Positions 17,891 through 52,511 of a stretch of 64,000 nucleotides of DNA are shown here, piece by piece. Made by a program: the position numbers and the translations under genes. The DNA comes from Bdellovibrio svalbardensis (GTDB lineage Bacteria > Bdellovibrionota > Bdellovibrionia > Bdellovibrionales > Bdellovibrionaceae), in NCBI RefSeq assembly GCF_029531655.1, contig NZ_JANRMI010000001.1, forward strand, positions 62,001-126,000, read 5' to 3'. The first letter of the stretch is position 1. Each line of letters begins with the position of its first letter. The notes below the pieces were generated by a model. It saw only the letters and a program-made list of their open reading frames with translations. It made no database searches and had not been told where the DNA came from.

Positions 17891-18021
17891 GTCTCATCTT
17901 GAGACATAGTTACAGGATACCTTTTAACCCAGTGCCCAGAAGTGTCGCTACTAAATGGTCTTAGACATCTGTGAAGTCTTAAAATCAAATAAATGAACTT
18001 TCAGGTAGCACCGCTTTTGCT
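17891..18021 (+). promoter_or_regulatory. Dyad plus sigma-54-like promoter upstream of the 18072 gene
   Basis: The dyad GTCTCA-TCT-TGAGAC (17891-17905) is perfect. Downstream, 'TAGCACCGCTTTTGCT' has the spacing of a -24/-12 element, AG (18007-18008), 10 bp, then GC (18019-18020), with one mismatch in the -24 GG. The expected start site is near 18032, so the dyad lies about 134 bp upstream. The -24 mismatch makes this the weakest of the four promoters of this type. Confidence 0.5.
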
Positions 18022-42089: not shown

Positions 42090-42117
42090 TCAAGAGAATC
42101 CCCGTTTGAGCCGATAA
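42090..42117 (+). promoter_or_regulatory. FliA (sigma-28)-type promoter upstream of flp
   Basis: GCCGATAA (42110-42117) is an exact match to the flagellar sigma-28 -10 consensus. A weaker -35-like TCAAG begins at 42090 with 16 bp between (ideal TAAA-N15). The expected start is about 42124, immediately before the 'aaaggggg' Shine-Dalgarno of the pilin gene. Confidence 0.55.
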
Positions 42118-42138: not shown

Positions 42139-42327
42139 ATGAAGAAGTTCAAGAACTTTTCTAAGAAGCTTTTTAAAAATCAATCAGGTCAAGGTGCTAC
42201 TGAGTACATTCTTTTGCTCGTAGTTGTCGTAAGCCTAGTGATGATTTTCAAGAAGGATATTCAATCTGCTGTATCTGACAAAATTGGTCAGCTTAAAGAC
42301 GGCATGGGCCAAGTCAACGTTCAGTAA
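42139..42327 (+). CDS. flp: Flp-type pilin
   Basis: A 62-residue class III (Flp) prepilin. A short basic leader is followed by 'GQGATEYILLLVVVVSLVM', with the G|ATEY processing site and the Glu5-Tyr6 pair required for Flp assembly. It is the major subunit of the Tad pilus, used for adhesion. In Bdellovibrio such pili are suspected in prey contact. It leads a run of pseudopilin and Tad assembly genes, with a FliA-like promoter upstream and a strong 'aaaggggg'. Confidence 0.9.
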   Translation: MKKFKNFSKKLFKNQSGQGATEYILLLVVVVSLVMIFKKDIQSAVSDKIGQLKDGMGQVNVQ

Positions 42328-42355
42328 TTTCATTAGCTTAAGAAGCTGAGGATAA

Positions 42356-42538
42356 ATGACCATAGAGTATGTCCTGTTGCTTTTTGCAGTGTTCTTCATC
42401 GGGCTGAAGGTTTTTATCTCAGCCCCGGGGAAAGCATTCAAAGAGTCAGGACCACGAATGGCCGCTCGAGTGGAAGCCCATCTGGAAACAGGTGGTGGCT
42501 TTACTCCCAAAGGCCAACGTAACAAGTGGGAAGAGTGA
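42356..42538 (+). CDS. Small single-span protein in the pilus cluster
   Basis: A 60-residue protein starting 'MTIEYVLLLFAVFFIGLKVF'. The IEY/L pattern resembles a mature pilin N-terminus without a leader peptide, so it may be a minor pilin that skips processing or a membrane helper. The C-terminal half is hydrophilic ('HLETGGGFTPKGQRNKWEE'). It is 28 bp after flp and 2 bp before the next gene. Unrecognised family. Confidence 0.7.
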   Translation: MTIEYVLLLFAVFFIGLKVFISAPGKAFKESGPRMAARVEAHLETGGGFTPKGQRNKWEE

Positions 42539-42540
42539 GT

Positions 42541-42792
42541 ATGAAAAGCACTCTGCAAAACCAACGTGGTCAATTTGTTATCGAAGCTGTTTTGCTAATG
42601 GTGGTGATGCTTGGAGTTTTTATCGCGAGCATGAATACACTGCGTGAAGGAAAATATCTGGCAAACCTGATCGAACGCCCCTGGGCCGAAGTTCAAGGAA
42701 TGCTGGAATGTGGCGTTTGGGGCCCTCCTTCCAAAGCATGTAAAACATTGCCCGGTCAGCTAGGAAGACAAGTATCGCTGAAACCTAACTAA
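42541..42792 (+). CDS. TadE-like pseudopilin, small
   Basis: An 83-residue protein with a type IV-like leader 'KSTLQNQRGQFVIEAVLLMV', where Gly-Gln and Glu (fifth mature residue) fit a prepilin site, followed by one helix. Two cysteines ('LECGVWGPPSKACKTL') may form a disulphide loop. ATG 42541 follows the upstream stop by 2 bp. Probably a minor pseudopilin of the Tad system. Confidence 0.75.
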   Translation: MKSTLQNQRGQFVIEAVLLMVVMLGVFIASMNTLREGKYLANLIERPWAEVQGMLECGVWGPPSKACKTLPGQLGRQVSLKPN

Positions 42793-42800
42793 GGTGGATA

Positions 42801-43469
42801 ATGAAGGAACAAGGACAAGGTAGAAAGATCATAGGAAATTCGCGCGGAATCATTTCCGTCGATTTCATTTTTGCACTCACTCTGTGTGCAGGTCTTTGTA
42901 TTGTCCTCTTCTCACTGACTTTTACTTTGGCTATGGCTGAAGTTGGTCAATATATAACTTTCTCAACAGCAAGAGCTGCATCCGCAGCGCATGAAAATCC
43001 TGAAAAGCAAGCCTTAGTGGGAAAGGATAAGTTCAATGAACTTATCAATCGTCCGGTTCTAAAAGATCTATTCGCAAAACCGGATGGAAGCTGGTTCTTG
43101 CTTGGAACCACGCAACCAGGAAGTGCGCCCAAAGCGGATATCCGCGGCGGCTTCGAGGGTTCTGATTTTTCAAACGAATACAGCAGCGTCAATTCAGAGG
43201 AAATTCCTCTGACTGGGGCCCGCATCGTTTTCGTACCTCGCCTACTCAATATTAAAATCGCCTTCTTGGGAAGCACCTCATCAGATTCTGATACCGGTTT
43301 TTCTGCAAACTTGACGGCATTCATGATTCGCGAGCCCACTCAAGCTGAGTGCTGGGCGCAAATCAAACAGCGTAACGACGCTATACTTAGTCTTTCAAAT
43401 ACAACTTATAAAGCGATGGGCGGAGCTACTTCGTCCAAATACATTCCTATGGAGGACAACGGATGTTAA
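42801..43469 (+). CDS. TadE/F-like pseudopilin
   Basis: A 222-residue protein with a basic N-terminus, 'NSRGIISVDFIFALTLCAGL' (pseudopilin-type helix) and a long exported domain. The Gly-Ile-Ile-Ser-Val-Asp motif has Asp where TadE proteins carry Glu. C-terminal 'TQAECWAQIKQ' and 'MEDNGC' provide a likely disulphide. It overlaps the next pseudopilin gene by 7 bp. Confidence 0.75.
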   Translation: MKEQGQGRKIIGNSRGIISVDFIFALTLCAGLCIVLFSLTFTLAMAEVGQYITFSTARAASAAHENPEKQALVGKDKFNELINRPVLKDLFAKPDGSWFLLGTTQPGSAPKADIRGGFEGSDFSNEYSSVNSEEIPLTGARIVFVPRLLNIKIAFLGSTSSDSDTGFSANLTAFMIREPTQAECWAQIKQRNDAILSLSNTTYKAMGGATSSKYIPMEDNGC

Positions 43470-43984
43470 AATCTAAAAAGTCCTCCCAGAGAAATTCACC
43501 ACTAAATAATGAAAAAGGAATGGCGATCTTTGAGATGATTCCAATCATCGTGATTATCGTATTACTTATTAATTTCTCGCTGGGATTCTTTGGAGCGGTT
43601 CACACCGGCATCATGAATTCAATGGCTGCGCGCAACTATGCATTTAGCACTTTCAATCATCGCGCAAATTTGACTTACTTCCGCAGCACCAGAAATGCAG
43701 ATATTCACTACAAAGCCTATGGCATGCGTATTCATGGAACTCGCGATGAAAGCATGAACAGTGGTGACAACTGGGCTGCGACTAAAAGAAAAATCGACTT
43801 CTTTGACTTCAAAGATCGTCCAGCAGTCGAAGGTGGCAGTGCGGCCCATAATAATCAAGTGCCGACTGTCTGTGATTTCAGTGCTCAAGGTTGTACAAAC
43901 CCCAGGAATGATAGGGTCAGTGTAAGTCCTATCTGGATTAAATCATCATATGGCATCTGCTTGAATGCAGCTTGTGGAACTTAG
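43463..43984 (+). CDS. TadE-like pseudopilin
   Basis: A 173-residue protein with 'NEKGMAIFEMIPIIVIIVLL', a classical prepilin-peptidase site (G|MAIFE) with Glu5, then an exported domain rich in aromatic and basic residues. The C-terminus has four Cys ('VCDFSAQGCTNP', 'GICLNAACGT'), suggesting two disulphides. TadE-type proteins are minor pilins needed for Flp pilus assembly. It overlaps the preceding gene and is 8 bp from cpaB. Confidence 0.8.
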   Translation: MLKSKKSSQRNSPLNNEKGMAIFEMIPIIVIIVLLINFSLGFFGAVHTGIMNSMAARNYAFSTFNHRANLTYFRSTRNADIHYKAYGMRIHGTRDESMNSGDNWAATKRKIDFFDFKDRPAVEGGSAAHNNQVPTVCDFSAQGCTNPRNDRVSVSPIWIKSSYGICLNAACGT

Positions 43985-43992
43985 GGAGAGCT

Positions 43993-44913
43993 ATGGGACC
44001 GAATGACACACGAAATTTATGGCTTTCGATCGGAGCAGGAGTCTTCGCGACCTTCCTGTTATATAGCTATTCTCAAGAGAAAAAAGCTGAGTACGATAAA
44101 CGCTTCGGCTCTACAAAGCGTGTCGTGGTCGCCAAAGACGATATTGCCGAAATGCAAACGATCTATGATACAATGGTAGAGACCAAAGAACTTCCTGCTG
44201 ACTTTATTCAGCCTGAAGCGATCACCGTCCCTGATGAAATCATCGGTAACGTGGCAGCTGTTCCTATTCGTAAAGGACAGATGGTTTTGAAAAATAACTT
44301 GCTGACTCCAGGACCTGACACGGGGATTGCGTTGCAAGTGGCGCCAAGTAAACGCGCCATCGCCATTCCGGTGGATGAGGTGCGTGCGGTGGCAAAAATG
44401 ATTCGCCCTGGTGACCGCGTTGATATCTTCGCCGCTGTGGACAGTGGCAAAGGTGTAAATCAAAAGCGTGAAGTCTTCACGATGATGAGTGACGTTGTGG
44501 TTCTTGCTACCGGCGTGAGTGTTGTGAACAACATTCCACGTATGTTCGAACTCGATGCCTCTGGAAAAAATCTCAGTCAGATTGCGCTGACTGGTGATAC
44601 CAAATATACGACGATTACTGTGGAAGCGACTCCCAAAGAGGCTCAGGATTTGTTCTATATCCTGTCAACAGCTCCGGGAAATCTCTTCTTCGCTTTAAGA
44701 AATCCTAGTGACAGAACTGTCCCGCCTCGCATGCCGAGTTCGACGTCAGATTCTGTAGCTGGAAGACCGGTTGTTTCTTTGGAGGGAGCTCCGCCAGCGG
44801 CTGTGGCTCCACCAATGATGCAGCAACCGGCTAGACCCGCAATGGCTCCAACGATGCAACAACGTACGGCACCTCCACCAACACAACGACCGGGTGGATT
44901 TCACACTTTGTAG
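43993..44913 (+). CDS. cpaB: Flp pilus assembly protein CpaB (RcpC)
   Basis: A 306-residue inner-membrane/periplasmic protein. ATG 43993 follows 'gggagag'. One helix (about 9-24) is followed by a SAF domain ('KRVVVAKDDIAEMQTIYDTM', 'VAAVPIRKGQMVLKNNL') and the CpaB C-terminal region ('ALQVAPSKRAIAIPVDEVRA', 'MIRPGDRVDIFA'). CpaB is thought to link the secretin to the inner-membrane complex. The Pro/Met/Gln-rich tail (from about residue 260) is disordered. Confidence 0.92.
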   Translation: MGPNDTRNLWLSIGAGVFATFLLYSYSQEKKAEYDKRFGSTKRVVVAKDDIAEMQTIYDTMVETKELPADFIQPEAITVPDEIIGNVAAVPIRKGQMVLKNNLLTPGPDTGIALQVAPSKRAIAIPVDEVRAVAKMIRPGDRVDIFAAVDSGKGVNQKREVFTMMSDVVVLATGVSVVNNIPRMFELDASGKNLSQIALTGDTKYTTITVEATPKEAQDLFYILSTAPGNLFFALRNPSDRTVPPRMPSSTSDSVAGRPVVSLEGAPPAAVAPPMMQQPARPAMAPTMQQRTAPPPTQRPGGFHTL

Positions 44914-44953
44914 TTCTGGTTTGTTTTAGGGGAATGTTAGTTAAGGGGGACTT

Positions 44954-46480
44954 ATGAAATACGAACTACTCATACTAAGTTTGCTTCTTAGTCTGAGCGG
45001 AAATACGGCCCGCGCTGAGGATGATCTCACTGCGGATCCAACTGTTTCTGTCTCTGAAGAATCCGGCGGATCCTATCGCTCTCGCAAATTCTTAAGTCTT
45101 ACTCTTGGCATTGAACATGACGAGAAGCTTCCCCCTATTCCAAACGAAGTGGAGTTCCGTGGTGACTTCCGTCGTATCGTGACAGCGGCTTATGCCAAGG
45201 ATCTCAATGTCATTCGCTTCACTCCCAAAGCGGATGGCTTTGCGACTCTGACTATTCATGACAAAAAGAATGGCAAAATCGTTGCCGAGTACCGCATCGA
45301 CATCAAGAAAAGCAAACTCGATAAAGTGGTCCGCGAAATGCGCGCCCTTCTGGGTGATATCGAAGGTATTAATATCAAAATCGTAAATAACAAAGTTGTC
45401 GTTGACGGCCAAATCCTTCTCCCTAAGGATTTAGCGCGCATTTACAATGTGGTTCAACAGTTCGGTGATCAAGCTTCGTCTTTGGTGACTTTAAGCCCTC
45501 TGGCACAAAAGAAAATTGCAGAATTCATCACTCGCGACATCAACAATCCTGAAATCGAAGTTCGTGCCGTGAATGACAAAATCATTCTTCAAGGCTGGGC
45601 AAATAGCGATGACGAAAAAGTTCGCGCAGAGATTATTGCAAAGACTTACCTTCCCGACATCGTCATTGAAGCGGCTGAAGAAAAAGGTGTGATCAAGAAA
45701 CGTAAACCGGCAAATGATGGCGTGATCAATCTTATTCAAGTCAAAGAAGCGGCTCCAAAGCCACCTTCTAAAATGATTCAAATGGTTGTTCACTATGTAG
45801 AACTGAATAAGGACTATTCGAAAGCGTTTAAGTTCCAGTTCACTCCTGAACTTGCTGACAACTCTCAGCTTACTGTCTCCAGTGGCGGCAGCGCTGCCGG
45901 CGGTGTGGTAAGTTCACTCACTGGTGTCGTTTCCAATCTCTTGCCTAAATTAAATTGGGCAAAACAACATGGTCACGCTCGTATTTTACAAAGTACTAGT
46001 TTGATTGTTGAAGATGGCAAAAAAGGTGAAATCAAACAGGTGACGAACCAACCGTACGCGGTGATCGGTCAGAATGGAACTCAGGGAACTGCCTTCGCCG
46101 AAGTGGGTATCGTGACAACCATCACGCCAATGCTTTTGGGTGAAAAGTCAGGTTCCGTGCATATTGATATGGCCTTTAAGGTCAGCAGTATGATCGGTAG
46201 CACGCCAGCGGGTGCTCCAATTACCAGTAATAATGAGATGACAAGCTCCGTGATCGTGCGTGACCGTCAAAGTGCGGCCGTGGGCGGTCTGATCCGTAAC
46301 TCTTCAACCACTGGGTACAATCGTCCAGCTGGTCAGAAGAATCCGATCATCAGCTTGTATGCCTCTAAAGAGTTCGCGAAAGATCAAAGCCAGTTCGTGG
46401 TGTTTGTGACTCCAGTCGTAAAGACTTCAGCCAGCGCCGGAGCTGAACAGATCAAGAAGAAGTTCCGTTTACGTGATTAG
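44954..46480 (+). CDS. cpaC: Flp pilus secretin CpaC (RcpA)
   Basis: A 508-residue outer-membrane secretin. A signal peptide (1-21) is followed by a pilus-N domain ('LSLTLGIEHDEKLPPIPN'), two BON-like repeats ('VVDGQILLPKDLARIYNVVQ', 'IILQGWANSDDEKVRAEII') and the secretin core ('MIQMVVHYVELNKDYSKAF', 'FAEVGIVTTITPML', 'AAVGGLIRNSS'). The ring forms the exit pore for the Flp pilus. No separate CpaD/RcpB is visible. Confidence 0.93.
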   Translation: MKYELLILSLLLSLSGNTARAEDDLTADPTVSVSEESGGSYRSRKFLSLTLGIEHDEKLPPIPNEVEFRGDFRRIVTAAYAKDLNVIRFTPKADGFATLTIHDKKNGKIVAEYRIDIKKSKLDKVVREMRALLGDIEGINIKIVNNKVVVDGQILLPKDLARIYNVVQQFGDQASSLVTLSPLAQKKIAEFITRDINNPEIEVRAVNDKIILQGWANSDDEKVRAEIIAKTYLPDIVIEAAEEKGVIKKRKPANDGVINLIQVKEAAPKPPSKMIQMVVHYVELNKDYSKAFKFQFTPELADNSQLTVSSGGSAAGGVVSSLTGVVSNLLPKLNWAKQHGHARILQSTSLIVEDGKKGEIKQVTNQPYAVIGQNGTQGTAFAEVGIVTTITPMLLGEKSGSVHIDMAFKVSSMIGSTPAGAPITSNNEMTSSVIVRDRQSAAVGGLIRNSSTTGYNRPAGQKNPIISLYASKEFAKDQSQFVVFVTPVVKTSASAGAEQIKKKFRLRD

Positions 46481-46495
46481 GGCCTAAGTCTCGTA

Positions 46496-46521
46496 TAAAG
46501 ACAGTGCACGCCGGCCGATAA
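46496..46521 (+). promoter_or_regulatory. FliA (sigma-28)-type promoter upstream of the cpaE-cpaF fusion
   Basis: GCCGATAA (46514-46521) again matches the sigma-28 -10 exactly; TAAAG (46496-46500) is a good -35 core with 14 bp between TAAA and GCCGATAA (ideal 15). The start would be near 46528, just before 'ggagg' and the TTG start. Confidence 0.55.
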
Positions 46522-46539
46522 GGAAGACGGAGGTCCGCA

Positions 46540-48759
46540 TTGGCTATCAATCCTAATTGTAATCTCATCGCTGTTGTTGGTGGTAAGGGAGGCGTCGGTA
46601 AGAGCGTCTTCGCTGCTAACTTTGCCTGTGCACTTATGACTGAGCTCCGCACTCAGGTTTTGCTTGTCGACGCTGATTCAAAAAGTGTCGGCGACCAAAA
46701 CGTGATCATGGGTTTGAAACCCGTCAAAACTCTTAAAGAACTTTCAAGCTTCCAAGGCTCTTTGAATTCACAGCCGATGAACACTCTGGTGACTATGCAT
46801 CCTTCGGGACTTGCCTACGTCGGAGCAGTTCGTGGACCTGAAGAAAGCATGAACATCGCGCCGGACATGCTTGGCAAACTCCTTGATTTTTTCAGTCGTG
46901 CATTCAAATTCGTCGTTGTGGATTGTGGTAACGATCTAGGCCCTGCGCAAATGGCGGTCCTTCAAGAAGCGACAGCCATCATGATCGTGACTACACCAGA
47001 GGTGCTCGTCGTGACTCAAACTCAGCGTTTGATTAACGAGCTTCTTTCTGCAACTTTCCCTAAAGACATGTTCCAGCTTGTGATAAATAAAGCCTCTCCA
47101 ACGGGTCTTTCTCCTCAAGCAATTTCCAATCAATTGCAATTGCCGTTCTTAGGAATCATTCCTCAAGACGAAGCGACCTCAACAATGGCGATGCAAAAAT
47201 ATCAACCTTTCGTTTTGGCAGCTCCCAAAGCTCCCGTAACGGCTGCATACTTTGATCTATCAAGAAAGCTTACGGGCGGAGTCATTCAACGACTCAAAAC
47301 TCTCTCTCGTCCAAAGCCGGCTCCCACTGTCAGCGCGGAAGGCGGCAACGCCGCGGCTCTTCCGGGGACTGCGGGAATGGATCCACGCACGATCCTCAAA
47401 ATTCGTATTCATAATGAACTCATCCGAACAGTCGACCTTAAGAAGCTTCTTATGGACACCAAGGATGAGAACAAAGAAAAAGAGATTCGCGAAAAAACCA
47501 AACGTGAAATCACTTTGATCGTGGATAAAGAGGCTCCAGATACTGCGCGTGAAGAGCGCTCAAAAATTATTAAAGAAGTGCTGGAAGAAGCGCTGGGCTT
47601 GGGTCCTTTGGAAGATCTGCTTGCCGATCCAGCTGTCTCTGAGATCATGGTGAATGGTTATAAGAAAATCTTCGTTGAGAAAAGTGGTAAGGTGCAACTC
47701 AGCCCGGTCTACTTCACTTCGAATGATCATCTTCGTCGTATTATTGAGCGTATCGTGACCCCACTCGGCCGTCAGATCAACGACTCGACTCCCTATGTGG
47801 ATGCGCGCTTGAAAGATGGTTCCCGTGTGAATGCCGTGATCGAGCCTTTGGCCATCGATGGCCCCGCTCTAACAATTCGTAAATTTAAAAAAGGCGGAAT
47901 CACGCCTGAAAAATACATCGAATACGGAAGTATCACTAAGAACATGATCGACTTCCTTCGCATCTGTGCTGAAAACGGTTTGAACATCGTTATCTCTGGC
48001 GGTACCGGTTCAGGTAAAACATCTTTGCTGAATATGATGTCTTCATTCATTCCTTCGAATGAACGTGTTATCACTGTCGAGGATGCGGCCGAGCTGCAGC
48101 TTCAACAGGAGCACGTGGTCCGACTAGAGACTCGCCCAGCTTCGATGGAAGGCACGAACTCAGTCACGATCCGTGACTTGATTAAAAATGCCCTGCGTAT
48201 GCGTCCTGATCGTATCATCGTGGGTGAGTGCCGTGACGGTGCCGCTCTAGATATGCTTCAAGCCATGAACACGGGTCATGATGGTTCAATGACCACTACA
48301 CATGCCAACAGTCCCCGTGAATGTATTGCGCGTCTGGAAACTCTGTGCTTGATGTCAGGTATGGATCTTCCAATCCGCGCGATTCGCGAACAGATCTCTG
48401 GCGCGGTCAACTTGATTGTTCAGATCTCGCGTCTTTCTGATGGTAGCCGTAAGATCCTGAGCATCACTGAAGTTGCCGGAATGCAGGGCGAGATCGTGAC
48501 TTTGGCGGAAATCTTCCGTTTCAAAGAAACTGGTTATGATAAAAATCGTAAAATCCAAGGTGTGTTCCAAGCAACTGGTACAATCCCTAGCTTCATTCAA
48601 AAATTAAGCGACAAGGGTGTTGTCATTCCGCGTGAGATCTTCGCCAATGACCCAGCCGCTGCGAACCCAGCCCCTGCAGCAAAGGCAGCAGCTCCAAATA
48701 TCGCTGCACCGAAGATGCCGGGAATGCCAGGAGTCACACCTCCTAAGAAGGTGGGATAG
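46540..48759 (+). CDS. CpaE-CpaF fusion: MinD-like ATPase joined to the Tad secretion ATPase
   Basis: A single 739-residue frame starting with TTG after 'ggagg'. Residues 1-245 form a ParA/MinD-like ATPase with '[19 protein letters not shown]', but the receiver domain usual in CpaE is absent. A Pro/Ala linker (about 250-275) joins it to CpaF/TadA (about 276-700): '[16 protein letters not shown]' (Walker A, about residue 490), '[15 protein letters not shown]' (Walker B) and '[19 protein letters not shown]'. CpaF powers pilus assembly and CpaE localises it, so fusion would fix them one to one. The C-terminal tail is Ala/Pro-rich. The fusion is unbroken by any in-frame stop. Confidence 0.9.
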
Positions 48760-48762
48760 ACT

Positions 48763-49638
48763 ATGCGTTTTCTTTTTAACGAATGGATTATGATTCCTCT
48801 TTTCGGTATCTGCGTTTTCGTGATCATTTTGATGTGGTCCGAGAAAGCAATCACATGGCTGCATAAGCGCAGCCTTGGTCAAAGAGAAGAAGTCGTCAAA
48901 ACACTTCGTTTGATGGGCAATGATGTTGACGAAAAGAAAATCACCATCATGATTTTACTTATGAGCTTTGGTGTGGGCGCCTTGGCTTTCCTGCTCTTCT
49001 GGCCAAATGTTCTTTTAGGAGTTGTGTTTGGCGCAGCTCTGACTATCGGAGGCTGGCAGCTTCCCTTATTGCTTGTTCGCTTCATGTATGAAAAACGCTG
49101 CTCCGTCTTCACAGATCAAATGGTGGATGGACTTACTATTATGGCAAACGGTATTAAAGCCGGTTCCAATCCACAAGAATCCATGAAGCGCGTGGTGGAA
49201 ATCATGGGAAATCCCATCAGCCAGGAGTTCTCACAAGTTCTTTATCAAATGCAAGTCGGTGATAGTTTTGAAAGTGCATTGAGTGATTTGGGAAATCGCA
49301 TCCCTCGCCCTGATGTGCAGATGTTTGTAACCTCTATCAATATCCTGAAAGAGACCGGCGGTAACTTGGCCGAAACTTTCCAGACCATAGTCACGGTCAT
49401 TCGTGAAAGACAAAAGGTAGAGAAAAAAATTCAGGCTTTGACAGCACAAGGGCTCATGCAGGGAATCATCGTGACCATGATCCCGTTTATCTTGATGGGC
49501 GTATTTTTAATGGTGGATCCTAATTTCATCAAACCCATGTTTACCACAACCCTTGGTCTAGTGTTGTTGTTCGTGATGCTGGCTCTACAAATTATCGGTG
49601 GCGTGGTTATCAAAAAGCTTGTTACCATCAAAGTGTAG
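48763..49638 (+). CDS. tadB: Tad pilus inner-membrane protein (TadB, T2SSF domain)
   Basis: A 291-residue protein with two N-terminal helices, a cytoplasmic T2SSF domain ('MVDGLTIMANGIKAGSNPQE', 'LKETGGNLAETFQTIVTVIR') and two C-terminal helices. It forms the inner-membrane platform on which the CpaF ATPase acts. Most Tad loci carry both tadB and tadC; only this one is here. The next gene starts 62 bp downstream after a CAAAGTG...CACTTTG inverted repeat. Confidence 0.9.
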   Translation: MRFLFNEWIMIPLFGICVFVIILMWSEKAITWLHKRSLGQREEVVKTLRLMGNDVDEKKITIMILLMSFGVGALAFLLFWPNVLLGVVFGAALTIGGWQLPLLLVRFMYEKRCSVFTDQMVDGLTIMANGIKAGSNPQESMKRVVEIMGNPISQEFSQVLYQMQVGDSFESALSDLGNRIPRPDVQMFVTSINILKETGGNLAETFQTIVTVIRERQKVEKKIQALTAQGLMQGIIVTMIPFILMGVFLMVDPNFIKPMFTTTLGLVLLFVMLALQIIGGVVIKKLVTIKV

Positions 49639-49700
49639 TTTATCAGTTTCAAGCATGCACTTTGGTTTTAACTGAAGTAGTTACTGAAGAGGTAGAAATA

Positions 49701-51353
49701 ATGAAGAAGACTCTCTTGGCGATCGCAGTTCTTTTTTCTGCGCAAGCGCACGCGCTTGTCGACATGAAAAATGCCAACTATTCGAATACCTGGATTGATA
49801 TGGATGTTCCAGGCAGCGGATACGATTTGAAAATCGTTAGGACTTACAACAGCCGCTCACTCTTCAATGGTATGTTCGGCTTCGGCTGGTGTTCAGATTT
49901 TGAAACCAGCATGGAAGTAAATGCCGAAGGCAACTTGAAGGTGAAAGAATGCGGAGGCGGTCTTGAAGTAACTTTCTCTCCTCGTGAAGTCAGTCGTAAA
50001 GATGTCGACAACACGATCAACGCCATCGTTGCTAAAATGAAGGCCGAGAAAAAAGTCGGCGTGACGGAAGCTTACATCAACGGCTTGAAAACTCAGCTCG
50101 TTGAAGACGATAACGCCCGTTCAGAGTTGGCAGCCAAGTACGGATTAACGGCGCCAGTTAAAGAAGGGACGAAATTCTATGCAAACGGTCGCGAGGTCGA
50201 GCACTTTGTCTTCAATAAGACTTACTACACCCGCAATCTTCCAGATGGCAGCGCTCAACGCTTCAGTCTTCAAGGAAAATTGACTCATATCTACGATAAA
50301 AACGGGAACTTCCTGAAATTTACGTATGACAAGGATTCGATTGCTCAACTGGAAGACAACAATGGACGTCGTTTGGCTTTCAAATATTTCCAGAATAAAA
50401 AAGTTAAAACTATCACGGGTCCAAACGGCCTCATGGCTGAATATAAATTCGCCAACCTGGATGACTTGGCTTCTGTAAAGAATGCCTGGTTGAAGACATA
50501 TACTTACGAGTACGATGATCTTCACAATCTAACCAAAGCTTCTTGGCCAGATAAAACTTTTGTCGCTTTGAAATACGACAAAAAGAATGACTGGGTTATC
50601 GGTTTCGCAGATCGCGATAAGTGTATCGAGTCTTATAAGTACGAGTTCGCGACAAATGATCCTAAAAATCACTATTGGTCGACTGTTAAGAAAGTCTGCG
50701 GCAAAGAAACTATCGCAGATAATAAGTACGAATTCTGGCATCAACAACGTGCTGATGGTCAGTTCTTCCTACAGCGTGTTATGACGTCAGTAAACGGCAA
50801 CACTACGGATATCACTTATCACGAAGTGTTCGGCAAACCGACTTCTATCCGTCGCAACACAGATCGCATCACTTACGAGTACTTCCCAGACGGACTTGTG
50901 AAGGTAAAAGCGACAGCAGCAATGCGTATGACTTACGAATACGATCCAAAAGTTAAGAAGGTCAGCGAAGTGACTTCGGTCTTCTTCAACGCGAAGGGTG
51001 CAAAAGTAGCCACCAAGCAAACGAAGTTCCAATACGATCCTAAAGGAAATTTGGCGTTTGCTCAGAACACTGACGGTCAAAAGATTTCAATGACTTATGA
51101 CAATCGTGGCCGCATCGCAACGATCACTGATCAAGCGAAGAAGGTTGTGAAGATCGAATACGAAGAACGCTACGGCAAACCAGCAGTAGTGACTCGCCCT
51201 GGCTTGGGCACCATTCAGGTTTCTTACAAACAGAATGGTGAGATCAATAAGGTCGACAGCAAAGAAGGTCCTTCAGTGGCAATGCAAGTAGCCAGCACAT
51301 TTAATAACTTGCTAGATATTATCGCTCCAGCTACGGCTGAGCTTTATCTGTAA
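49701..51353 (+). CDS. Secreted RHS/YD-repeat protein, candidate hit-locus Bd0109 counterpart
   Basis: A 550-residue protein with a signal peptide (1-19, 'AHA'), a DUF6531-like N-terminal region ('IDMDVPGSGYDLKIVRTYNS', 'GMFGFGWCSDFE') and many YD-type repeats ('LTHIYDKNGNFLKFTYDKDS', 'YDNRGRIATITD'). There is no C-terminal toxin domain of the kind found in long RHS toxins. It directly follows the Tad cluster and precedes a 91-residue secreted protein by 13 bp. That is the order of bd0109-bd0108 in the hit locus, where mutations permit prey-independent growth. The match rests on order and size. Confidence 0.75.
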   Translation: MKKTLLAIAVLFSAQAHALVDMKNANYSNTWIDMDVPGSGYDLKIVRTYNSRSLFNGMFGFGWCSDFETSMEVNAEGNLKVKECGGGLEVTFSPREVSRKDVDNTINAIVAKMKAEKKVGVTEAYINGLKTQLVEDDNARSELAAKYGLTAPVKEGTKFYANGREVEHFVFNKTYYTRNLPDGSAQRFSLQGKLTHIYDKNGNFLKFTYDKDSIAQLEDNNGRRLAFKYFQNKKVKTITGPNGLMAEYKFANLDDLASVKNAWLKTYTYEYDDLHNLTKASWPDKTFVALKYDKKNDWVIGFADRDKCIESYKYEFATNDPKNHYWSTVKKVCGKETIADNKYEFWHQQRADGQFFLQRVMTSVNGNTTDITYHEVFGKPTSIRRNTDRITYEYFPDGLVKVKATAAMRMTYEYDPKVKKVSEVTSVFFNAKGAKVATKQTKFQYDPKGNLAFAQNTDGQKISMTYDNRGRIATITDQAKKVVKIEYEERYGKPAVVTRPGLGTIQVSYKQNGEINKVDSKEGPSVAMQVASTFNNLLDIIAPATAELYL

Positions 51354-51366
51354 GGAAGGTGACTGT

Positions 51367-51642
51367 ATGAAAAAGATTTTAGTTGCTGCAACAATCTTAG
51401 TTTCTTTAGGTTCGGCCTTCTCTGCATTTGCACAGGAATCAAAACGCTCAGTAAACCCTGGCGAAGACCCGAATGAAGCAATGACCTCACAAGGTGCCGC
51501 TGTTGCCACTGTTGGCGAGTGCAAGGAGTGCTTGGCTCGTCTTAAACATATGCGCCTCAGTGATCCTACAGCTGCCCAACCTGCAACTGGCTCAGGCCAA
51601 AACCAAGGCACTGGAAGCAAAGCCAACGAAGGTACAAACTAA
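51367..51642 (+). CDS. Small secreted protein, candidate hit-locus Bd0108 counterpart
   Basis: A 91-residue protein with a signal peptide (1-22, 'AFA'), a central 'GECKECLARLKHM' with two Cys, and a Gly/Gln/Thr-rich tail. It lies 13 bp after the RHS gene. In Bdellovibrio the equivalent small gene (bd0108) is the main mutation site of host-independent mutants, classically by an in-frame deletion between short direct repeats. I do not see an exact 10-bp direct repeat here, so that hotspot may not be conserved. Confidence 0.65.
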   Translation: MKKILVAATILVSLGSAFSAFAQESKRSVNPGEDPNEAMTSQGAAVATVGECKECLARLKHMRLSDPTAAQPATGSGQNQGTGSKANEGTN

Positions 51643-51802: not shown

Positions 51803-51842
51803 GTCTCAGACTGAGACACAATTCATGGCATGAGCGATGCAA
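51803..51842 (+). promoter_or_regulatory. Dyad plus sigma-54 promoter of the first small secreted gene
   Basis: The dyad GTCTCA-GAC-TGAGAC (51803-51817, perfect) is followed by TGGCATGAGCGATGCAA with GG (51827-51828), 10 bp, GC (51839-51840). That fits the RpoN -24/-12 element with mismatches outside the invariant GG/GC. The expected start is near 51852, 31 nt before the ATG. Confidence 0.75.
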
Positions 51843-51882: not shown

Positions 51883-52074
51883 ATGAAACTTGCTAAAATT
51901 CTAATGGCTGCTGTTGTGCTTGCGTCTGCATCTATGTCATTCGCAGATCCAAAGTGCGCTCACAAGGAAAATGGGTCTTTGTTCGCATCAACGAACCCGG
52001 TTATGAAGGCTCGTTCATCGACAACTTCTCCGACTGTTCCTGTAAGAGCCCACTCTAACGGCGCAGTTAAATAA
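51883..52074 (+). CDS. Small secreted protein, paralogue A
   Basis: A 63-residue protein, ATG after 'aaaggag', with a signal peptide (1-21, 'SFA') and a 42-residue mature part: 'DPKCAHKENGSLFASTNP', then a Ser/Thr/Pro-rich tail ending 'GAVK'. One cysteine. It is similar in layout and key residues (KC-H, G-SLFA, AVK end) to the gene at 52323, indicating tandem duplication. Sigma-54-type promoter upstream, own terminator downstream. Function unknown. Confidence 0.75.
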   Translation: MKLAKILMAAVVLASASMSFADPKCAHKENGSLFASTNPVMKARSSTTSPTVPVRAHSNGAVK

Positions 52075-52089
52075 TTTGAAAATGCCCCC

Positions 52090-52136
52090 AAAAGGAGAGT
52101 GGCTTCCCCCCCAATGGTCGCTCTCCTTTCCCTTTT
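52090..52136 (+). terminator. Terminator of paralogue A
   Basis: AAAAGGAGAG (52090-52099) pairs with CTCTCCTTT (52121-52129); the intervening C-rich stretch forms the loop. The 3' side continues 'cccttttgtct', T-rich. Position directly after the gene supports termination. Confidence 0.7.
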
Positions 52137-52187: not shown

Positions 52188-52279
52188 CTTCTCAGTCTGA
52201 GAAGACATCTCTCTAAGTTGTTGATTTGACGACTTGGCAATCTCATTGTGATTCACAAAATCTGGCACGGGCGATGCAA
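52188..52279 (+). promoter_or_regulatory. Dyad plus sigma-54 promoter of the second small secreted gene
   Basis: The dyad CTTCTCAGTCTGAGAAG (52188-52204) is perfect. TGGCACGGGCGATGCAA has GG at 52264-52265, 10 bp, GC at 52276-52277, differing from the RpoN consensus TGGCACG-N4-TTGCA by one base. It shares GCGATGCAATACC with the promoter of paralogue A. The expected start is near 52289, 34 nt before the ATG. Confidence 0.8.
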
Positions 52280-52322: not shown

Positions 52323-52511
52323 ATGAAAATCACTCAAGCAATCATCACAGTAACAATCCTAACAATCGCTTCAACTTCTTTTGCTGGTTCTAAATGCTCA
52401 CACATGATGAGTTCACAAGGTAACAGCCTTTTTGCGCATACTGCAGCAGCCCCTGTTTCAGCACAAGGTTCCACAACTGCAACTACAGCAGCTCAACAAG
52501 CTGTTAAGTAA
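52323..52511 (+). CDS. Small secreted protein, paralogue B
   Basis: A 62-residue protein, ATG 52323 after 'ctaggag'; the longer frame upstream is unlikely because it would put a long non-signal N-terminus in front. Signal peptide 1-21, then 'GSKCSHMMSSQGNSLFAHTA' and an Ala/Thr/Gln-rich tail ending 'QQAVK'. One cysteine, as in paralogue A. The clear sigma-54 promoter implies condition-specific, probably abundant expression. Confidence 0.75.
   Translation: MKITQAIITVTILTIASTSFAGSKCSHMMSSQGNSLFAHTAAAPVSAQGSTTATTAAQQAVK

Follow-up and report, generated by a model that had tools for sequence, protein, structure and literature searches.

Small exported protein genes with predicted sigma-54 promoters at the hit locus of Bdellovibrio svalbardensis, and a probable protein-coding origin of a small RNA reported in strain HD100

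Ever since the discovery of the hit locus, known from strain HD100 of Bdellovibrio bacteriovorus (bd0108-bd0119), the way in which Bdellovibrio abandons obligate predation has been an open question. Bd0108 binds Bd0109 with a dissociation constant of 45 uM, and nuclear magnetic resonance maps this binding to Bd0108 residues 24-66; mutations leading to host independence include a common 42-bp deletion that removes residues 73-86 and point mutants at positions 70 and 72 (PMC4267844). Piliation is lowered by loss of bd0108 and raised by the 42-bp deletion, and a 261-bp small non-coding RNA (sRNA) at HD100 positions 96455-96716 is raised in all bd0108 mutants (PMC3818213); the model of 2013 involves an sRNA without a clear target. 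Here, we describe the corresponding locus in a stretch of 64,000 nucleotides (nt) from the 3.9-Mb genome of Bdellovibrio svalbardensis (contig NZ_JANRMI010000001.1, positions 62,001 to 126,000; hereafter the window), together with small genes located just downstream of bd0108, hereafter the B genes, which from their sequences appear to be a new part, i.e., a previously unrecognised third component, of the hit locus. Overall, we consider it likely that the window holds a hit locus made of a FliA-driven Tad/Flp operon ending with bd0109 and bd0108, plus B genes under sigma-54 control, that the sRNA of HD100 is the messenger RNA (mRNA) of a B gene, and that B proteins may replace or antagonise the switch half of Bd0108.

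The two genes closing the operon have clear equivalents in HD100, for which genome G003 was used as reference; it was taken as HD100 or a near-identical strain because its bd0108 encodes 101 residues, as published, two primers from PMC3818213 match it exactly and its coordinates agree with that paper. The gene at 49701..51353 (+ strand) encodes an exported RHS/YD-repeat protein of 550 residues (Pfam RHS_repeat and DUF6531) that aligns end to end with HD100 Bd0109 at 85% identity; its start is most likely the ATG at 49701, rather than the TTG at 49662. Starting 13 nt past its stop codon, the gene at 51367..51642 (+) encodes an exported 91-residue protein with a signal peptide, a CxxC motif (CKEC) and, at 51547-51573, the sequence HMRLSDPTA, whose relation to the B proteins is discussed below. 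It matches the NCBIfam model NF053838 (hit_Bd0108) with 114.5 bits (E 2.5e-33, curated cut-off 40) and HD100 Bd0108 with 37% identity over 75 residues (BLASTP, E 5e-12). A preliminary description of this DNA had proposed that these genes are the counterparts of bd0109 and bd0108, and the alignments support this, with a similarity well beyond composition. It had also considered the pair sufficient to identify the organism: this holds through the Bd0108 counterpart, and HD100 and the window genome are indeed placed in the same genus, but Bd0109 alone would not suffice, since 176 genomes have it in a phylum-wide sample of 192. Bd0109, with a match in 64 of the 66 Bdellovibrionaceae genomes, is, judging from this distribution, far older than the genus. 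By orthology to the published genetics (PMC3818213), both genes are presumably predation regulators in the window species as well. To this extent, the hit locus with its Tad cluster, bd0109 and bd0108 is known biology, namely a previously described locus seen in a further species.

The preliminary description correctly placed the genes of the cluster but ended the locus at 51642, whereas two further small exported-protein genes extend it to 52511. B1 (51883..52074, +) encodes 63 residues with the motif NGSLFASTN (51970-51996), is preceded by a ribosome-binding site, carries a signal peptide and is the ortholog of an HD100 open reading frame (ORF) lying inside the reported sRNA; its transcript would be closed by a terminator-like hairpin (52091..52129, +) with a 14-bp stem in the RNA fold. 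B2 (52323..52511, +) encodes 62 residues with the motif GNSLFAHTA (52419-52445) and matches the family model at E 6.3e-15, a model in which B2 is itself one of the rows. When ORFs downstream of bd0109 were collected across the family, with a signal peptide and a ribosome-binding site as the sole selection criteria, 48 Bdellovibrionaceae loci were found to have at least one B ORF (55 in total), mostly of 57-76 residues. Reading frame, ribosome-binding site and signal peptide are kept across deep divergence, and the ratio of non-synonymous to synonymous substitution rates (dN/dS) is 0.00-0.25 (0.02-0.25 in close pairs having replacement changes), with for instance 12 synonymous and 1 non-synonymous changes between HD100 and genome G006, or 14 and 0 between loci L011 and L013. 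Because synonymous changes far outnumber replacements, codon evolution indicates that the frame is translated, and we regard the protein-coding nature of the B ORFs as close to certain on these comparative grounds. The window and HD100 copies match no known family in Pfam, and none of 35 B proteins matches any NCBIfam model, NF053838 included. While the window carries two B genes in tandem, HD100 has one at the hit locus and one at 407440-407619 (L220); such a further B gene away from the hit locus is seen in at least 15 of 24 genomes of the genus (L221-L234 in addition to L220).

In HD100, the B1 counterpart is a 66-residue ORF on the minus strand (96483-96683), with a strong ribosome-binding site, and falls within the 96455-96716 interval of the sRNA. 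Both published primers for reverse transcription PCR (RT-PCR; +542-561 and +620-639 past the bd0109 stop) lie inside this ORF (+511-711), and the transcription start predicted by arithmetic from the sigma-54 site described below, at about 96733, is within the interval of 96436-96822 defined by RNA-seq (PMC3818213). The interval described as non-coding coincides with a gene that, in our reading, encodes a protein under selection and has a sigma-54 promoter, and the reported sRNA is in our opinion very probably the mRNA of the B protein, which supposes that the published RNA runs in the direction of the ORF. A true regulatory sRNA, with an incidental ORF or with a dual function, was the view of the original authors (PMC3818213), and the window transcript does fold somewhat better than shuffled sequences (z -2.1), the terminator accounting for part of this. 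However, a small non-coding RNA is expected to have no selected reading frame, and the dN/dS values at the B ORF, the large excess of synonymous changes, and the maintenance of frame, ribosome-binding site and signal peptide over deep divergence make this explanation improbable. A hypothetical gene adjoining bd0108, RefSeq BD_RS00505, has been mentioned (PMC5941755) and could be the HD100 B ORF; in the literature searched, no paper links it to the sRNA. Eight other published Bdellovibrio sRNAs were also considered as hidden small-protein genes, and none resembles the B genes. An Rfam scan of the window returned tRNAs only, with no riboswitch at the hit locus.

A second distinctive feature of the B genes is their promoter. 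Using the pattern [TC]GGC[ACT]N7[TCA]GC[AT], a sigma-54 motif was found within 100 nt upstream of all 55 B ORFs, compared to 0.6% of base-shuffled upstream regions and 10 of 978 windows of 100 nt from bd0109 coding sequence; sigma-54 sites number 92, versus 23 for a reversed-pattern control. In the window, these predicted promoters are TGGCATGAGCGATGCA for B1 (51826..51841, +) and TGGCACGGGCGATGCA for B2 (52263..52278, +). They show the GG-N10-GC core in a TGGCA/[TC]GC[AT] context with fixed spacing, and rpoN is present in the genome, as it is in 60 of 66 genomes of the family; in HD100, sigma-54 is encoded by bd0843 (PMC3464611). Judging from these matches, sigma-54 would be active at the B promoters. 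No such motif is present upstream of the ORFs at the Bd0108 position, as would be expected of genes that close a FliA operon. If the RNA is indeed the mRNA of a B protein, sigma-54 would emerge as a regulator that the papers found do not link to the switch to host independence.

Each of the two sites is also preceded by a palindrome, TCTCA-N3-TGAGA, with TCTCAGACTGAGA (51804..51816) located 22 nt upstream of the first site, a spacing that recurs in relatives, and TCTCAGTCTGAGA (52190..52202) 73 nt upstream of the second. Two distances are preferred, 22 nt (10 cases) and 73 nt, the latter seen 5 times at the hit locus and in most second-locus copies; they differ by about five helical turns. The B genes away from the hit locus have a strict sigma-54 site in 14 of 15 cases, with a one-base variant in the other, and usually the palindrome as well. 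In the window the palindrome occurs at 17892, 51804 and 52190, and genome-wide in HD100 and relatives there are 42-54 copies per genome, versus 1-6 for a reversed-pattern control; in HD100 they mostly lie just 5' of predicted exported or lipoprotein genes, making this sequence a candidate global operator. A general role as a dedicated sigma-54 activator site was rejected, because the majority of 40 further copies examined in HD100 are not followed by a sigma-54 site.

Comparison of the B-family profile with that of the proteins at the Bd0108 position gave a single match of 16 columns (hhalign 92%, P 7e-7), whose score was reached by none of 60 column shuffles. The matched part reads C...[LMF]xxxT[NA], its equivalent in HD100 Bd0108 being ...GSRRHDDT..., and the host-independence mutations at 70, 72 and 73-86 (by count, RRHDDTVSREIKGS for the latter) fall within the part of Bd0108 that matches the B proteins. 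These keep only the single Cys and the [LMF]xxxT[NA] part and lack the preceding NPGEDPNEA part; since the latter is missing and Bd0109 binding maps to residues 24-66, B proteins resemble a Bd0108 switch half from which the anchor to Bd0109 is missing. In the HD100 clade, a striking RH..T change is found in Bd0108 as well as in both the hit-locus and the distant B protein, which proves little, as it is one event in near-identical strains. Among the Bd0108-position proteins themselves, a small exported ORF lies 6-122 nt after bd0109 in nearly every locus with sufficient sequence, 16 of 25 tested proteins match hit_Bd0108 at E 0.001, and several genus members have the position and the Cys motif in common but lack the NPGEDPNEA part. 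The reported absence of bd0108 from some species (PMC5941755) may reflect such fast divergence. In genome G004 (L021), bd0108 ends early compared to relatives, with bd0109, the B gene and its promoter intact, and strain W has a bd0108 devoid of its C-terminal region (PMC4267844).

The short length of the match leaves room for a more ordinary explanation, in which the window is simply the known hit locus in one more species, with nothing functional past bd0109 and bd0108, the downstream ORFs being unrelated to Bd0108 and sharing only its composition. Both families are indeed small, exported and rich in Ser, Thr, Ala and Gly, and the motif shows no sign of co-evolution, matching within genomes being no better than between genomes (p 0.24). 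On the other hand, the match scores above all 60 column shuffles, and the position, sigma-54 promoter and purifying selection of the B genes are conserved across the family; we therefore see this explanation as unlikely, although not negligible.

The explanation that we favor, in which the B proteins act on the Bd0108 switch, would proceed as follows. Bd0108, which is exported and disordered, binds Bd0109 and holds back growth without prey; in attack phase, both proteins would be provided by the pilus operon. The one or two B genes would be transcribed separately, each from its own sigma-54 promoter, and turned on by an envelope signal following Bd0108 loss or a changed pilus state. In turn, the B product, as a free copy of the switch half, would replace or antagonise Bd0108 at a common partner. 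This partner, and the competition between the two proteins, are deduced rather than observed, and the exchange mechanism itself is a tentative proposal. Several points weigh against the explanation as a whole: the 16-column extent of the match and the negative co-evolution test just mentioned; the lack in genus g19 and several deep branches of a recognisable B gene; the lack of any expression or proteomic data for B among the sources searched; and the fact that no statement on the strand of the published RNA, which was localised by RNA-seq and RT-PCR, was found in the available portion of PMC3818213, so that an antisense RNA has still to be considered. In addition, a contest of B for Bd0109 itself was demoted as unlikely, because B lacks most of the 24-66 region through which Bd0108 binds.

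As for Bd0109, the AlphaFold model of the window protein is a long strand-rich chain (mean predicted local distance difference test score, pLDDT, 83.6; predicted template modelling score, pTM, 0.58), predicted as a curled beta-sheet resembling solved Rhs shells. The best Foldseek matches are Rhs shells of type VI secretion systems (T6SS) and teneurins (8h8b, 8qja, 6fb3), and this common fold, together with the small size of the genes downstream of bd0109, could evoke an Rhs toxin followed by immunity genes. Yet Bd0109 is about half the length of these proteins or less, is exported by a signal peptide, and has neither a toxin domain nor the DPxGL motif for autoproteolytic cleavage; its conservation is highest at the C-terminus (521-550; majority fraction 0.86), where a polymorphic toxin would on the contrary have a variable tip. 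Bd0109 is in these respects unlike a polymorphic toxin. The downstream proteins themselves have signal peptides, Bd0108 of HD100 is a binding partner, and a bd0109 deletion was not obtained (PMC3818213), all of which make a toxin-immunity system hardly credible here. Genome G043 (L045, L072) has a second full-length Bd0109 paralogue, 38% identical.

Upstream of bd0109, the genes of the cluster are all present on the + strand between 42139 and 51642, in the order given in the preliminary description from flp to the 91-residue exported protein. A FliA (sigma-28) promoter, TCAAG-N16-CCGATA (42090..42116, +; exact match), is located just 5' of flp1, as expected from the control of this operon by FliA, demonstrated in HD100 and JSS (PMC5430801), and from the attack-phase promoter consensus TTAAG-N16-CCGATA (PMC3627812). 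It is followed by flp1 (42139..42327), the type IVb pilin counterpart of Bd0119 (Pfam Flp1_like, 36.9 bits for a cut-off of 33.5), and by flp2 (42356..42538), counterpart of Bd0118, a truncated Flp pilin without match in the Pfam scan but starting with MTIEYVLLL, like the MTVEYVLLL found at the equivalent HD100 position, a type of start motif described previously (PMC5430801). Three small ORFs come next, at 42541..42792, 42801..43469 (an HD100 ORF, 105015-105656, is at the equivalent place) and 43463..43984. The preliminary description counted three or four small pseudopilins here; three ORFs are indeed present, but Pfam gives nothing firm for them, and the name comes from their position and hydrophobic N-termini, the third, TadE/G-like, having in addition a weak Flp1_like match (E 0.007). 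The remaining genes are cpaB/rcpC (43993..44913; RcpC 68.3 bits, SAF), with a start more likely at 43993, the secretin gene cpaC/rcpA (44954..46480; Secretin 66.4 bits, BON), a cpaE(tadZ)-cpaF(tadA) fusion of 739 residues (46540..48759; MinD/ParA-type N-terminal and T2SSE C-terminal halves) and tadB (48763..49638; T2SSF 70.4 bits). By Pfam, Flp pilin, CpaB, secretin, TadZ/TadA ATPases and TadB of a Tad/Flp (type IVb) pilus are thus represented, and no ORF for a TadV prepilin peptidase lies within 42139-51642.

This order is that of the HD100 hit locus, down to the cpaE-cpaF fusion of the same 739 residues and to the downstream neighbours, a CheY-like gene and a gene for an 86-residue membrane protein. 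On the upstream side, the window has an hpt-like gene, whereas a chemotaxis gene has been reported there in HD100. A more distant parallel is provided by Bacteriovorax marinus SJ, where two small signal-peptide proteins, BMS_0183 and BMS_0184, adjoin a Bd0109 homologue; the authors who noted them saw no similarity to Bd0108 (PMC4267844).

If the RNA raised in bd0108 mutants serves as mRNA for a Bd0108-like protein that is exported, signalling would remain within the envelope and the search for a target would change. Beyond this, it is conceivable, albeit doubtful at this stage, that the switch from prey-dependent to prey-independent life consists of one envelope protein taking the place of another, with sigma-54-driven mini-Bd0108 proteins, mistaken for a small RNA, assuming the role of the Bd0108 switch half, and that the same system, with further genomic copies, operates throughout the Bdellovibrionaceae.

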